Below, piece by piece: positions 1 to 6,327 of a DNA stretch of 6,327 nucleotides. Under the pieces are notes generated by a model. It had not been told where the DNA came from and did no database searches. It saw only the letters and a program-made list of their open reading frames with translations. The translations under genes were made by a program, and so were the position numbers. Where the stretch lies: assembly GCA_005878995.1 (NCBI GenBank), contig VBME01000038.1, positions 1-6,327 of the forward strand, in the 5' to 3' direction. How positions within the stretch are numbered: position 1 is the first letter of the stretch; every line of letters begins with the position of its first letter. Source of the DNA: Methanobacteriota archaeon (GTDB lineage Archaea; Thermoplasmatota; Thermoplasmata; RBG-16-68-12).

Positions 1-1
1 C

Positions 2-523
2 TACCTTCTCGAGAACCTCGCGCGGATCCTCGCGGTCGAGCGATCCAAGGAAATCGGCGAGTCGGTGGACATCCTGACGTCCGCGAAGAAGCTGTTCGTG
101 TACGGCGTCGGTCGGAGCGGGCTCGCGGCGCGGGCTTTCGCAATGCGGATGGTCCAGCTCGGGATCGACTGCTACTTCATCGGGGAAACAATCACGCCAG
201 TCGTCAGCGACGGCGACGCGGTCCTGATCGTGTCGAACACGGGCTCGACGATGAGCGCGATCCAGGTCGCGAACATCGCCCGACGGGTTGGCGCGAAGGT
301 GATCTCCGTCACCGGCCACCGGACCTCGAAGTTGGGCCACGCGAGCAACGTGGTCCTGTTGATCCACGCGGACGAGGCGATCGCACAGGCCCGACTCGCC
401 CCCCTCGGCACGCTGTTCGAGGACGCGACGGTCCTCCTCCTGGACGGCCTCGTGGCCCAGGTTATGGAGCGACTGGGACAGACGGAGGCGGACATGCGAG
501 GCCGCCACGCCATCATGGTCTGA
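2..523 (+). CDS. hxlB: 6-phospho-3-hexuloisomerase (PHI), 5' end outside window
   Basis: SIS-fold sugar-phosphate isomerase that interconverts 3-hexulose 6-phosphate and fructose 6-phosphate. In archaea it works with 3-hexulose-6-phosphate synthase in the reverse ribulose-monophosphate pathway to supply pentose phosphate, in the cytosol. The frame is open back to base 2, giving 173 visible residues, so against the usual length of about 180 only a short N-terminus is missing. The GTG at 65 is internal, since sequence upstream of it still reads like the family's N-terminal helix. Family signatures are VYGVGRSG followed by RAFAMRM, then GETITP, a phosphate-loop-like SNTGST, and LGTLFED with the presumed catalytic Glu at bases 419-421. 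The protein ends in MRGRHAIMV with the conserved His. The loop is usually SGSGxT; here it is SNTGST, keeping Ser, Gly and Thr. No partner synthase (hxlA) is visible. Family assignment is strong. Confidence 0.93.
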   Translation, partial: YLLENLARILAVERSKEIGESVDILTSAKKLFVYGVGRSGLAARAFAMRMVQLGIDCYFIGETITPVVSDGDAVLIVSNTGSTMSAIQVANIARRVGAKVISVTGHRTSKLGHASNVVLLIHADEAIAQARLAPLGTLFEDATVLLLDGLVAQVMERLGQTEADMRGRHAIMV

Positions 524-535
524 CCCGGCGGGACG

Positions 536-2145: not shown

Positions 2146-2148
2146 TCA
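2143..2148. other. abutting convergent stop codons (TGATCA)
   Basis: The trpS stop TGA (2143-2145) is followed at once by TCA, the complement of the ATPase C stop (2146-2148). The six bases form a palindrome and leave no intergenic space. No T-rich terminator is visible just past either stop, so each transcript should extend antisense into the other gene. Confidence 0.9.
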
Positions 2149-2862
2149 GGCGAAACCGCGCGTGACCCGAAATCCGTTGTCGAAGACGAGGGCGTGATAG
2201 CCGGTGTCGTGCCGCGTCCCGCGCATCTTGACGACCCGGAGCTGGCGTTGCATCCCGAACTCCCCCTGCCGGACGAGCCGGAGATGGACGATCCCGTCGA
2301 CCAGGTAGTCCTCTTTGTGCTTGGCGTACGCCGCGCGGCGAGGGTCCGCGCCGATGATTCGGTCCGCCGGGAGTTCCCCGAGCAGGAACGTCGTGCACCC
2401 GAGGTCGCGGATCCAGCGGATCAGCGAGAACATCTCGCGACGGGGTTCTCGGAACTTCGCAAGGATCTCGAGGGCGTCGAGGGAATCGAGCACGAGGACT
2501 CGGTAGTCGAACGACTTGCGAATTCCCTGCGTGTAGAGCTTGAACAAGTCCATCCACGGTTGCTCCGCGGAGCCCCTCAGCTTTTTCCGGAGCGTGCCCA
2601 GGTCGAGGATGCTCAACTTGCCGCCCGTGTCGTCGAGCCGGTATCCCAACCCCTCCGTGTGGTCCAGCAGGCTCGCGCGGTTCTGCTCGAGGGACACGTA
2701 CAGACCCCGGACGCCTTCGAGGGCACGGGCGTGGAGGACATGGTACGTGAGCGACGTCTTCATCGTCCCGGGCGCGCCGGAGACCAGCACGATGTTGCCC
2801 TCCGGGACGCCGCCTCCCAGGACCTCGTCGAGGCCGTCGACGTTCGTGGGCAGGCGCTTCAC
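2146..2862 (-). CDS. KaiC/RecA-like ATPase, paralog C (intact)
   Basis: RecA-fold ATPase of the KaiC/RadA-like signal-transduction type (COG0467-like), 238 residues with a single KaiC domain. It probably forms oligomers, with ATP bound between subunits. The N-terminus (VDGLDEVLGGGVPEG) is the classic KaiC opening. Walker A is GAPGTMKT at 29-36 with Lys35, and SLEQ at 57-60 is the position of the KaiC catalytic Glu pair, with Gln as the second residue. Walker B is VLVLDS at 122-127 with Asp126. KMRG at 212-215 matches the KaiC lysine/arginine finger that reaches the neighbour's ATP, and the protein ends FDNGFRVTRGFA. The start is GTG 2862, which overlaps the upstream stop as GTGA and has a strong GGAGG ribosome-binding site seven bases before it. 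It is the last gene of the minus-strand set. The ATPase fold is secure, but the biological role (signalling, transcription control or other) is unknown. No DNA-recombinase features specific to RadA are evident. Confidence 0.9.
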   Translation of the reverse strand: MKRLPTNVDGLDEVLGGGVPEGNIVLVSGAPGTMKTSLTYHVLHARALEGVRGLYVSLEQNRASLLDHTEGLGYRLDDTGGKLSILDLGTLRKKLRGSAEQPWMDLFKLYTQGIRKSFDYRVLVLDSLDALEILAKFREPRREMFSLIRWIRDLGCTTFLLGELPADRIIGADPRRAAYAKHKEDYLVDGIVHLRLVRQGEFGMQRQLRVVKMRGTRHDTGYHALVFDNGFRVTRGFA

Positions 2863-4604
2863 CGGTTCGCCTCCACGATCAGCTCGAGCCGCTGCCGAAT
2901 CGATTCGATTTGCTTCCGGATTCGGTCCTTCTCCTCCGGGATGTCGACGACATCGGAAAGGCTCCCGAGGTCGATGCTCGCGCGGTCCGCGATCCGAGCG
3001 AGGTCCGCTCGATTGAGATCCTCGGGCCTCTTGCCCAGCCGCGCGAGCTGGGCGCGGAGCAGGCTCTCGCCCGCATCCCCAAGCTGCTCGACAAACACCG
3101 CCTTCGCCTTTTCGAACAGAGGCTCGCGCTCGCTCAGTTGGTCCGCGGCGGCGAAGAGCTCCTCCATCTCCTTACCCTTCCAGTACTCGGCCGCGGTGAC
3201 GAGCAGTTCCGTCTCCGTTTGTGAGGAGGTGCGCGACGGCCACTTCCCGCGGGCGACTTCCGTCGCCCCTTGATCCGCGAAGGCGCGCAGTACGCCCGCG
3301 GCAGCTTCGAGTTGGGTCTGTAAGCCATGTCCCGCGGTCCCGGCGACGACGCCGGACAGCTCGGCAAAAGCCTCTTGAAGGAATGCGATGAACGCGGGCA
3401 TGTGATCCGTCGTGAGGTCCTCCCGCCGCAACCCGTGGGAGCGACAGAACGCGGCGAGCAGTCGGGGTCCGCCCCCGCCGAACGACTGCGCGAGGATGGC
3501 CTCGATCTCTTGCGCCGGGTCCGGCAGCGTCCACCAAGAGAGTTGAAGATCTCCGAGGGACCGCCGCTCCGAACTCGTAAGACGGGACGTTGAAAGGACG
3601 ACCGTCGAGCCGGTGCTGCGCGAGACGTGCCGCAGCCGGACCACCATCTCGAGGGTGGGCGCCCACTCGGAAAGCACCGCCAGATCCGCGAGTCCCTCGA
3701 GGACGACGAGGCCGCCTCGTGTCGAACCGAGGAACTCCGAGGCGGTTGCGAGGGCCTGGACCGCCGCGTTCCGGGATGGCGGGATCGTGGCGTGGGCGGC
3801 TCCGCTCCGGGTCGAGGCGGGCGGTGTCCTGCCGATGACGAGGGTCGCACGGCCATCCGCCGATTCCCCTCGCGCCGCGTGGACTGCATACTTGGGACGC
3901 GTTTCTTCGAAGGCGATGGCATCGCCGGAAGGGATCCGGCCGGGGCCCGTCCGTCCTCGCGCGGGACGGGAAGAGATCGGGAACGGATCTGCCTGAAGCG
4001 CGACGAGGGCGAAGCAGGCCAGGGCGATCGGCGATGCGATGTTCGCGCCCGCGAGGGTTGTCCCACGTAGGACGTCGACCTCGTACGAGTAGACGGGCCC
4101 CGCAATGATCAGCGAGACGATTCCCAGGATGAGCCAGAACGCTTGGGTCCCAAGGAGTCGGCTGGTAGTGCGCGCGTAGATCGATTCTGCGAGGGCGATT
4201 CCGATGCAGACCACAAGGAACCCGCCAACAGCGTTGCCATCGTATGCGGTGGCAGGGGTCCAGCCGGCCACCTGCGCGAGGGCCGTGAGCCCGGGGACCG
4301 GCACAAGCAACAGAAACGCGATCGATCGTTGCCGGGTCAACGTCTCGCCGTGAATCAGGCTCAGGACGAGGATTGCGGTCAGGGCGTCCGCGAGGAGCAT
4401 GATTCCGAGAACGACGGTCGCATCCAGCGAGCCGATGACGTGTTCGTTGGTCCCAACGTACGCCGCGCCGAGCACGAGATAGGACAGCGCGCAGGCCGCG
4501 TACGTGGCTTGGAGCCAGGGTCGACGTCCGCGGAGTCCGACGAAGGCGATGAGCCATGCGTCGACCACGATGCCGGCGAGCACCGCGACGCTCGAGAGGT
4601 TCAA
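2859..4604 (-). CDS. seven-helix membrane protein with DUF835-like domain and helical C-terminus
   Basis: Integral membrane protein, probably a sensor or scaffold. Counting from TTG 4604 (581 residues), seven hydrophobic segments lie at about 4-24, 31-50, 62-84, 94-115, 125-144, 155-174 and 187-205. A basic Pro/Gly linker follows, then a domain at about 239-355 that resembles archaeal DUF835: TLVIGRTPP, a run of helix, GGLVVLEGLADLAVL, then STVVLSTSRLTSSERRSL. DUF835 is considered a RecA-like fold without a P-loop, and no Walker A is present here. The remainder (about 359-581) is helical, with a small conserved-looking block at 482-542 (FVEQLGDAGESLLRAQLARLG) and a charged probable coiled coil at 557-581. 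TTG 4604 is preferred because it gives a TTGA overlap with the previous stop and has GGGGGT six bases upstream. GTG 4667 or ATG 4661 in the same frame would overlap the previous gene by over 60 bases with low-complexity sequence. The gene overlaps ATPase C by four bases, so a joint role is likely. Domain assignment is by eye. Confidence 0.82.
   Translation of the reverse strand: MNLSSVAVLAGIVVDAWLIAFVGLRGRRPWLQATYAACALSYLVLGAAYVGTNEHVIGSLDATVVLGIMLLADALTAILVLSLIHGETLTRQRSIAFLLLVPVPGLTALAQVAGWTPATAYDGNAVGGFLVVCIGIALAESIYARTTSRLLGTQAFWLILGIVSLIIAGPVYSYEVDVLRGTTLAGANIASPIALACFALVALQADPFPISSRPARGRTGPGRIPSGDAIAFEETRPKYAVHAARGESADGRATLVIGRTPPASTRSGAAHATIPPSRNAAVQALATASEFLGSTRGGLVVLEGLADLAVLSEWAPTLEMVVRLRHVSRSTGSTVVLSTSRLTSSERRSLGDLQLSWWTLPDPAQEIEAILAQSFGGGGPRLLAAFCRSHGLRREDLTTDHMPAFIAFLQEAFAELSGVVAGTAGHGLQTQLEAAAGVLRAFADQGATEVARGKWPSRTSSQTETELLVTAAEYWKGKEMEELFAAADQLSEREPLFEKAKAVFVEQLGDAGESLLRAQLARLGKRPEDLNRADLARIADRASIDLGSLSDVVDIPEEKDRIRKQIESIRQRLELIVEANR
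2870..2874 (-). promoter_or_regulatory. ribosome-binding site for ATPase C
   Basis: GGAGG on the minus strand, seven bases before GTG 2862, lies inside the last codons of the membrane-protein gene. It fixes the unusual GTG start and makes independent or coupled initiation at the GTGA overlap likely. Confidence 0.7.
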
Positions 4605-5131
4605 CGGCCGACCCCCAGCGGATGGACCCGCATGATCGTGACGATATCCGAGGGACGCCATCCCCACCGCGCATTCCCGGCGTTGCGGAGCTCGGCTGCG
4701 GACCGGAACCCCGCTTGTCGTGCGTCTTCCTCCGTGAGGTCCGCGACGTACGCGCGGCGTGCGTCTTCGATCAGGAGCCGGCCGAACTCGGGGCCCGTCT
4801 CATACTTCGCGCGGACCGTGTACCCGACCCCCGGGAGCGACATGCCTTCGGCCGGGCGGACGACGAGGCGCGCGAGGTCCTTGAGGAGGCGATCCCCCTC
4901 CTCGACGGAGAACGCGAGTTCGCCCCGTGGCCGGCCCCGCGGCAATTCGCCGGAGAGTGCGAGCCGCGCCGCCCAGATCACGAGGAACGTGACGACCCCG
5001 CCGATGATCAGGAGGTTCGCGAACCCGATCTGGTAGAACTCGCGGTGGAACCAGAACCCCGCGACGAGGACGAGGGAGAGCAGGAAAAGGAACGCGGATC
5101 GGATCAGGAGAGTGCGCAACCGATCGCGCAT
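4601..5131 (-). CDS. two-helix membrane protein with ASCH/PUA-like cytosolic domain
   Basis: A 176-residue protein with two N-terminal membrane helices (about 8-27 and 35-57) and a soluble domain from about 72 to the end. The soluble part contains EFGRLLIEDARRAYVADL followed by TEEDARQAGFRSAAELR, then RWGWRPSDIVTIMRV. This resembles the ASCH domain, a PUA-like fold thought to bind RNA, where a strand, an acidic TxEDAxxxGF helix and a closing strand occur in that order. I know of no standard ASCH protein with such an anchor, so the call is tentative. ATG 5131 was chosen because the two helices follow directly, and sequence further upstream in this frame is the out-of-frame body of the ATPase B gene. 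The start lies four bases after the stop expected for an intact ATPase B, and overlaps that gene's current reading frame by 28 bases. Its stop overlaps the TTG of the next gene. The coding call is good and the fold call moderate. Confidence 0.75.
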   Translation of the reverse strand: MRDRLRTLLIRSAFLFLLSLVLVAGFWFHREFYQIGFANLLIIGGVVTFLVIWAARLALSGELPRGRPRGELAFSVEEGDRLLKDLARLVVRPAEGMSLPGVGYTVRAKYETGPEFGRLLIEDARRAYVADLTEEDARQAGFRSAAELRNAGNARWGWRPSDIVTIMRVHPLGVGR

Positions 5132-5691
5132 CGAATCACCCGATCGCCCGCGCGACTTCGAACCGCCCGTTCTCGAAGAGCAGGGTCCCGCAGCCACTCG
5201 AACCACCCAAAGGTCTCGGCCCGGCGGTCCGCGAACTCGAGGATCAGCTCGAGCGCGTCCCACGAGTCGATCGCGAGGAGACGGAAGTCCCGCTTCTTGC
5301 GGAGTTCGAGGATTTTCCCCTTCAATACGGCGAGGAGCGCCTCGCCGGGGGTCGCGGTCTCCGGGGACAACGCGCCGACTTTGGCGATCATCTCCTCCAG
5401 GTACTCACGGCCGCGGCTCAGGTCGAGGATCGGGAGCGCGTCGGAGACCGACGTCGCCTTGAGGCCGAGCGAGGCGATGTGTTCGAGGAGGCCGCCCGCG
5501 CTCTGTTCGAGGGTCACGTACAGGCCCGGCGTCCCTTCGAGCGCGTTGTGGTACAGCACGTAGTACGCCAGGGAGGACTTCATCGTCCCACTCGCCCCGC
5601 GGATGAGGACGACGTGACCTTCGGGGATGCCGCCTCGGAGGACGTCTTCGTCGAAGCCCCGGATATGCGTCTTCACGAAGGCCCGCGGCAT
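5104..5691 (-). pseudogene. KaiC/RecA-like ATPase, paralog B, internally deleted and frameshifted
   Basis: The second KaiC-like paralog has 195 residues as it now reads. The N-terminal two thirds are intact: Walker A GASGTMKS at 32-39 with Lys38, TLEQ at 60-63, and a Walker B strand LLAIDS at 138-143. Agreement with paralogs A and C stops after WFEWLRD (residue 169). The next 26 residues are Arg-rich and unrelated. In the shifted frame, bases 5186 to 5136 read LLFENGRFEVARAIG and stop, which matches the C-terminal ends of A (DDGRFRVTRAMSS) and C (FDNGFRVTRGFA). About 70 residues between the two parts are missing, including the KMRG finger, and the deleted length cannot be a multiple of three. 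The product would lack the last strands of the RecA core. It could be a pseudogene, a truncated regulatory subunit or an assembly error. ATG 5691 lies 10 bases after the stop of A with a GAGGGGAAGG ribosome-binding site, so translation may still start. Confidence 0.85.
5136..5186 (-). other. out-of-frame remnant of the ATPase B C-terminus
   Basis: Read on the minus strand from 5186, 16 codons give TLLFENGRFEVARAIG followed by TGA at 5138-5136. The pattern of hydrophobic strand, acidic turn with NG, then RF-V-RA is the ending of both sister ATPases. It is shifted by one base relative to the frame used upstream by ATPase B. The original stop would lie four bases before the ATG of the ASCH-like membrane gene, a spacing normal for this operon, which supports this being the ancestral end of B. 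Confidence 0.75.
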
Positions 5692-5701
5692 CGCCTTCCC
5701 C

Positions 5702-6327
5702 TCACGAGCTCATCGCCCGCGTGACCCGGAAACGTCCGTCGTCGACGTCCATCGCGAGGTATCCGGTCTCGTGTTTCGTCCCGCGCATCTTGACGACCCG
5801 CAGCCGTCGTTGCGCGGTAAGGTCCGTAACGAAATGCATGCGGAGGTGGATGACGCCGTCCGCGAGGAAGTCTTCGTCCCATCGGCCTTGGAGGACGTGC
5901 CCGGCGATGAGCCAATCGGGACGCTCCGTGACGAGGAAGCTCGTGACGCCGAGATCCCGCAGCCACTCGAACAATCGGTACATCTCCCGGCGGCGATCCT
6001 TGAACTTCGCCAGGACCTCGAGGGCTTCGAGCGAGTCGATCACGATCAGGTCGAGTCCCCGCTGTTCCTTGATCGATCGGATCGCAGCTTGGAGGCTCGC
6101 GAGCCAGTCCGTCTTCTCGGCAAAGAGGTTCTTGGCGGTCCTCGGATCCAGGACGACGAGGGAGCCTTTGGGGACTTTGAGCGGAAGGCCGAGGCCGCCC
6201 ATCTGCTTGAGCAAGCTCGACGCCCGTTCCTCCAGGCTTAGATAGAGGCCGTGGAGTTCCTCCTGCACGGCATTCTGGACGATGATCGAGAATCCTAGGG
6301 ACGATTTCATCGTGCCGGGAGCGCCCT
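5702..6327 (-). CDS. KaiC/RecA-like ATPase, paralog A, 5' end outside window
   Basis: Third single-domain KaiC-like ATPase and the first of the three in transcription order. It has 207 visible residues, with the N-terminal 30 or so cut by the window edge. The visible part begins exactly at Walker A, GAPGTMKS, with its Gly at 6325-6323. The ATG at 6310 is the Met inside this motif and not the start codon. SLEE at visible residues 30-33 keeps the two-acid pair of KaiC, whereas B and C have Gln second. Walker B is LIVIDS with its Asp at about visible residue 97. KMRG at 179-182 supplies the trans finger, and the protein ends DDGRFRVTRAMSS. It is clearly the closest model for the part lost from paralog B, sharing for instance WLRDLGVTSFLV and LRVVKMRGT with C. 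The stop lies 10 bases before ATPase B, so the genes are probably co-transcribed. The ATPase fold is certain enough; the cellular role is unknown. Confidence 0.88.
   Translation of the reverse strand, partial: GAPGTMKSSLGFSIIVQNAVQEELHGLYLSLEERASSLLKQMGGLGLPLKVPKGSLVVLDPRTAKNLFAEKTDWLASLQAAIRSIKEQRGLDLIVIDSLEALEVLAKFKDRRREMYRLFEWLRDLGVTSFLVTERPDWLIAGHVLQGRWDEDFLADGVIHLRMHFVTDLTAQRRLRVVKMRGTKHETGYLAMDVDDGRFRVTRAMSS

Follow-up and report, generated by a model that had tools for sequence, protein, structure and literature searches.

Gene B, the middle one of three KaiC-like genes in a 6,327-nucleotide piece of a soil archaeal genome (the window, meaning the whole stretch of DNA analysed), was found to lack a single block of 188 bp on comparison with the nearest of 13 related loci (L001; VBMG01000088.1, a contig titled 'Euryarchaeota archaeon isolate EA_17'), and is probably a new null allele, the product of a deletion that abolished its function very recently in a single strain. 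In the proposed course of events, gene B would encode a single-domain KaiC-like ATPase conserved across this soil archaeal group, and the sampled strain would have undergone a single very recent 188-bp deletion in it, perhaps joined at a 3-bp microhomology. Such a deletion would take out residues 170-232, comprising part of the ATPase core together with the Lys/Arg pair which, in KaiC, extends to the ATP of the neighbouring subunit, and would shift the reading frame. A product truncated in this way is not expected to adopt the KaiC fold, and it is for this reason that B is regarded as a new null allele. We infer the presence of the deletion in living cells, the death of the B product and the deletion mechanism.

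Apart from the missing block, gene B was traced on the minus strand from 5691 to 5136. The open reading frame of B (5104-5691, minus strand) encodes 195 residues and matches the intact 247-residue protein of L001 (L001 2596-3339) through WFEWLRD (residue 169), the surviving in-frame part, residues 1-169, occupying 5185-5691 (minus strand) and being 99% identical to L001 where the match is best. From residue 170 it continues as a frame-shifted tail of 26 new residues (5104-5184, minus strand), in agreement with the preliminary description, which had B leaving the family sequence for unrelated residues after WFEWLRD. The stop, now at 5104, lies inside the next gene, near its start at 5131. The family ending, TLLFENGRFEVARAIG followed by a stop, lies where it had been reported, in the shifted frame at 5186-5136 (minus strand), as an out-of-frame remnant of the B C-terminus in which 0 of 51 bases differ from L001. 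Direct comparison with L001 gave 188 bp as the length of the missing block, shorter than the 200-215 bases first estimated but, as had been stated, not a multiple of three. The residues gone from the window product are 170-232 of 247 (63 positions), replacing an earlier assignment to residues 154-224 (about 70 residues). The disabling change is apparent against intact orthologs, since a 188-bp frame-shifting deletion stands beside 15 of 16 strong matches that reach the last residue.

The window aligned to L001 in two gap-free blocks, one of 3383 bp at 94.3% and one of 1144 bp at 96.9% identity, which meet at 5184-5186, and zero indels were present across the approximately 4.5 kb aligned other than the 188 bp. 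At this junction a 3-bp microhomology relative to L001 was identified (ACC on the minus strand; 5184-5186). Because a microhomology of at least 3 bp was obtained in 7.5% of 20,000 simulated deletions (50-400 bp long, with starts at L001 2600-3300), it is taken as only a hint of the mechanism. A hairpin-driven deletion was rejected, no excess secondary structure being detected in L001 3050-3340 (z -0.15), and an insertion in L001 in place of a deletion in the window was rejected because full-length orthologs hold the segment. A strain chimera at the junction was likewise rejected, as divergence from L001 shows no step, being 1.2% on one side (5104-5186, 83 bp) and 1.0% on the other (5187-5286, 100 bp). 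These two adjoining stretches, about 99% identical to L001, also bear on the suggestion made at the outset that the locus was misassembled, or had recombined, between similar paralogs. Although B and C have an identical 17-bp word in common directly beside the junction (5187-5203 and 5956-5972), the window continues as B on either side of the junction, with a tail identical to L001, and the junction contains no piece of C or A, which are 41% and 43% identical to the L001 B protein, respectively; as both flanks belong to B, misassembly or recombination of B with C (or A) is unsupported and is given hardly any credence.

The comparison with relatives that had been proposed as a check was carried out on 19 genomes congeneric with G001 (from which L001 comes), and returned an intact B in L001 and in most of the sample. 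A strong match to B (E 1e-80) was obtained in 16 of the 19 genomes, none of the 16 containing an internal stop; 15 reach residue 247, starting from residue 1 in 13 cases and spanning 2-247 and 3-247 in the other two, and the remaining match, in G010, stops at residue 197, where the contig ends (as does locus L010). At E 1e-80 nothing was obtained from three genomes (G013, G016 and G019); since the named genomes were binned from metagenomes, absence of B may reflect incompleteness, and a search of G001-G013 at E 0.001 recovered from G013 a 63-residue match to B ending 4 bases before a contig end. The junction pattern, allowing up to 3 mismatches, was present in 0 of the 19 genomes. A conserved truncated B, which the preliminary description had named as the observation that would counter a pseudogene, was found neither in these genomes nor in a family-level search of 22 genomes (the 19 included), where hits beyond the 19 were obtained only at 43-49% identity (E 1e-50). 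Several alignments of the window to related loci L002-L012 end at 5182, not 5186. Among the 120 homologous proteins listed (of 503), 95 are exactly 247 residues long and 13 are shorter than 240 residues; the 188-bp deletion occurs in none of these 13, in a protein database clustered at 90% identity in which a truncated copy could hide inside a cluster such as that of P0001 (35 members). Two of the 13, the B homologs P0117 and P0084, have lost other internal segments, in frame, from the half of the gene that is affected in the window; over the first 140 and 150 residues, respectively, each is identical to an intact protein, and these deletions are either very recent or artefacts.

For the intact part of B, the dN/dS check that had been suggested indicated purifying selection. 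Between the window and L001, codons 1-168 of B differ by 13 synonymous changes and 1 nonsynonymous change (dS 0.109, dN 0.003, dN/dS 0.025), and the corresponding dN/dS values are 0.025 for paralog A, 0.032 for the C domain, 0.094 for the 176-residue gene downstream and 0.175 for the 602-residue gene, the last being the highest among the five genes compared. An unconstrained B would be expected to gather about 20 nonsynonymous changes over the whole window branch, and a simple Poisson bound, which takes the two branches as equally long and leaves rate variation aside, limits the unconstrained period to at most about 23% of that branch. These surviving codons show no sign of the relaxed selection by which pseudogenes are usually recognised. 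Because the surviving part is under strong purifying selection, the break in B is either recent or not biological. Across an aligned selection of 53 sequences, of which three are paralogs, 32 of the 63 lost positions either do not vary or reach at least 90% conservation. The recent pseudogene offered in the preliminary description fits best among its readings in that the deletion occurs in no relative searched and the remainder of the gene still carries the signature of purifying selection; the lack of relaxed selection counts against it. Like ordinary deletion pseudogenes, B in the window has one clean frame-shifting deletion with the tail remnant in place; unlike them, it has no visible relaxation of selection yet.

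If the break is not biological, the real gene would be intact and the lesion an assembly or library artefact, produced by a chimeric read or fragment, or by local collapse, in a soil metagenome of low coverage. This explanation is the main rival and a serious one, though less probable than the allele: the deletion is seen in this window only and in no relative searched, its restriction to the window also counting against a null allele, the rest of B is strongly constrained up to a tail identical to L001, and P0117 and P0084 show that unrelated internal deletions beside intact twins, themselves perhaps artefacts, do occur among the shortened B forms in public data. However, assemblers usually need shared words longer than the 3 bp that the breakpoints have in common, and neither the long L001 alignment, with its lack of any further indel, nor the even divergence across the junction is what an artefact of this kind would lead one to expect. 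In our judgement the allele is about twice as probable as the artefact.

All three paralogs of the window match the Pfam family PF06745 ('KaiC/GvpD/RAD55 family'), to which KaiC-like archaeal ATPases belong. The intact L001 B scored 111.3 bits against this profile (cut-off 26.6), covering positions 1-218 of 231, whereas window B, without residues 170-232, scored 69.7 bits, still above the cut-off, and covers positions 1-152 of 231 only. The sequences GASGTMKS, TLEQ and LLAIDSWDAL are present in the window open reading frame and were aligned with KaiC and the paralogs; we take them to be the Walker A, catalytic-glutamate and Walker B regions of B, respectively. Alignment to KaiC placed the lost segment at the end of the ATPase domain, beyond FEWLRD and including the finger, and, as judged from this sequence, strands of the ATPase core would be lost from window B. 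The retention of the three putative nucleotide-binding regions is what favours a functional truncated subunit, in which the 195-residue product would bind ATP, lack the finger and poison or regulate assemblies with A and C. Nevertheless, the deletion removes roughly one third of the KaiC profile in Pfam, more than the finger alone, 26 out-of-frame residues have been added, and the genomes searched hold no counterpart, so that a subunit that binds ATP and fails to complete the site of its neighbour, as first proposed, is very improbable. Also very improbable is the more specific notion that cells express the truncated B and that, as a fragment able to bind ATP but lacking the trans finger, it partners full-length A and C in a dominant-negative or regulatory role, which would amount to a natural rewiring of a KaiC-like signalling set in one strain; the truncated form is not to be read as a biological type of subunit. 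On the preferred reading of B as a new null allele, the breakage of one copy, in a gene kept by the sampled relatives, is an ordinary finding, and nothing supports a new kind of system.

The neighbours of B in the window are of normal length by comparison with L001. On the minus strand lie part of C, B, a 176-residue gene, a 602-residue gene and A, and on the plus strand a gene for a Trp/Tyr-class tRNA synthetase (PF00579). Paralog A (2146-2862, minus strand) encodes 238 residues, the same number as in L001, and has the finger KMRGTRH. The 602-residue protein (2859-4667, minus strand), whose N-terminal half appears hydrophobic by eye, and the 176-residue protein of the next gene downstream of B (4601-5131, minus strand), whose N-terminal part likewise appears hydrophobic by eye, are both equal in length to their L001 counterparts; neither matched Pfam at E 0.001 or NCBIfam at E 0.01, and for the 602-residue protein no Pfam match was obtained up to E 1. 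The KaiC-like domain of paralog C (5702-6325, minus strand; finger KMRGTKH) belongs to a gene cut by the window edge, so that only its last 207 residues lie within the window. In L001, paralog C (792-2585) is a 597-residue open reading frame that contains TPR repeats, has its KaiC domain at the C-terminus, and gave a weak zinc-ribbon match below the cut-off. The alignment of the window to L001 stops inside the tRNA synthetase gene, and window positions 1-535 match another G001 contig (C214) at 96% identity. A more distant related locus, L012, is titled Thermoplasmata archaeon.

Intact L001 B fell below the cut-offs of all 9 NCBIfam models listed, the best score being 75.2 bits against a cut-off of 408. 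For circadian KaiC (TIGR02655) it scored 42.9 bits against 546.25, and B is a single domain of 247 residues. The likeness to the archaellum KaiC-like ATPase ArlH/FlaH is partial (residues 18-80; 29 bits, with the cut-off at 215), and no archaellum genes were recognised among the scanned window proteins. KaiC-like ATPases have been proposed as signal transduction hubs of archaea (as stated and cited in PMC5847659, and referenced in PMC6393860), and our best guess is accordingly that B would be an ATP-driven signalling component. The genomes of the 13 related loci (G001-G013; metagenome bins of 1.6-2.2 Mb) each contain 13-20 matches to B at E 0.001, and their KaiC-like set looks large for such small genomes.

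The K-x-R finger that acts in trans is absent from window B. In intact L001 B it is represented by K220 and R222, which were aligned with the K-x-R of the first domain of KaiC using a PDB KaiC sequence. In cyanobacterial KaiC the ATP phosphates are oriented by K224 and R226 of the next subunit, according to PMC2777353, and R226 is also treated in PMC6378743; K224 and R226 appear to be the residues aligned to K220 and R222 of B. The segment lost from window B contains, in L001, the motif KMRSVNQ, so that the earlier statement that a KMRG finger had been lost holds for the finger as such and for the form carried by A and C, but not for the form carried by B. Intact B thus keeps both charged residues of a KaiC-like finger without the usual G-T-x-H. 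Among the 120 relatives listed (of 503), 106 matched the search pattern, as KMRSVNQ (98), KMRSVDQ (3), KMRSVNH (2), KMRGVNQ (1) or KARSPNP (2), and 14 did not. Nine of these 14 are shorter than 240 residues; P0053 and P0060 have 311 residues and ends that resemble the downstream 176-residue protein, and P0058 and P0064 carry the near-forms VEMRSGHH and VKVRGANH, which lie outside the search pattern. These features suggest that, within the KaiC-like set of these soil archaea, intact B forms a distinct member under constraint. As a side result of limited value, the presence of KMRSVNQ in most of the B relatives listed, as opposed to KMRGTxH in A and C, represents a family-wide change at the site that contacts the ATP of the neighbouring subunit in KaiC.
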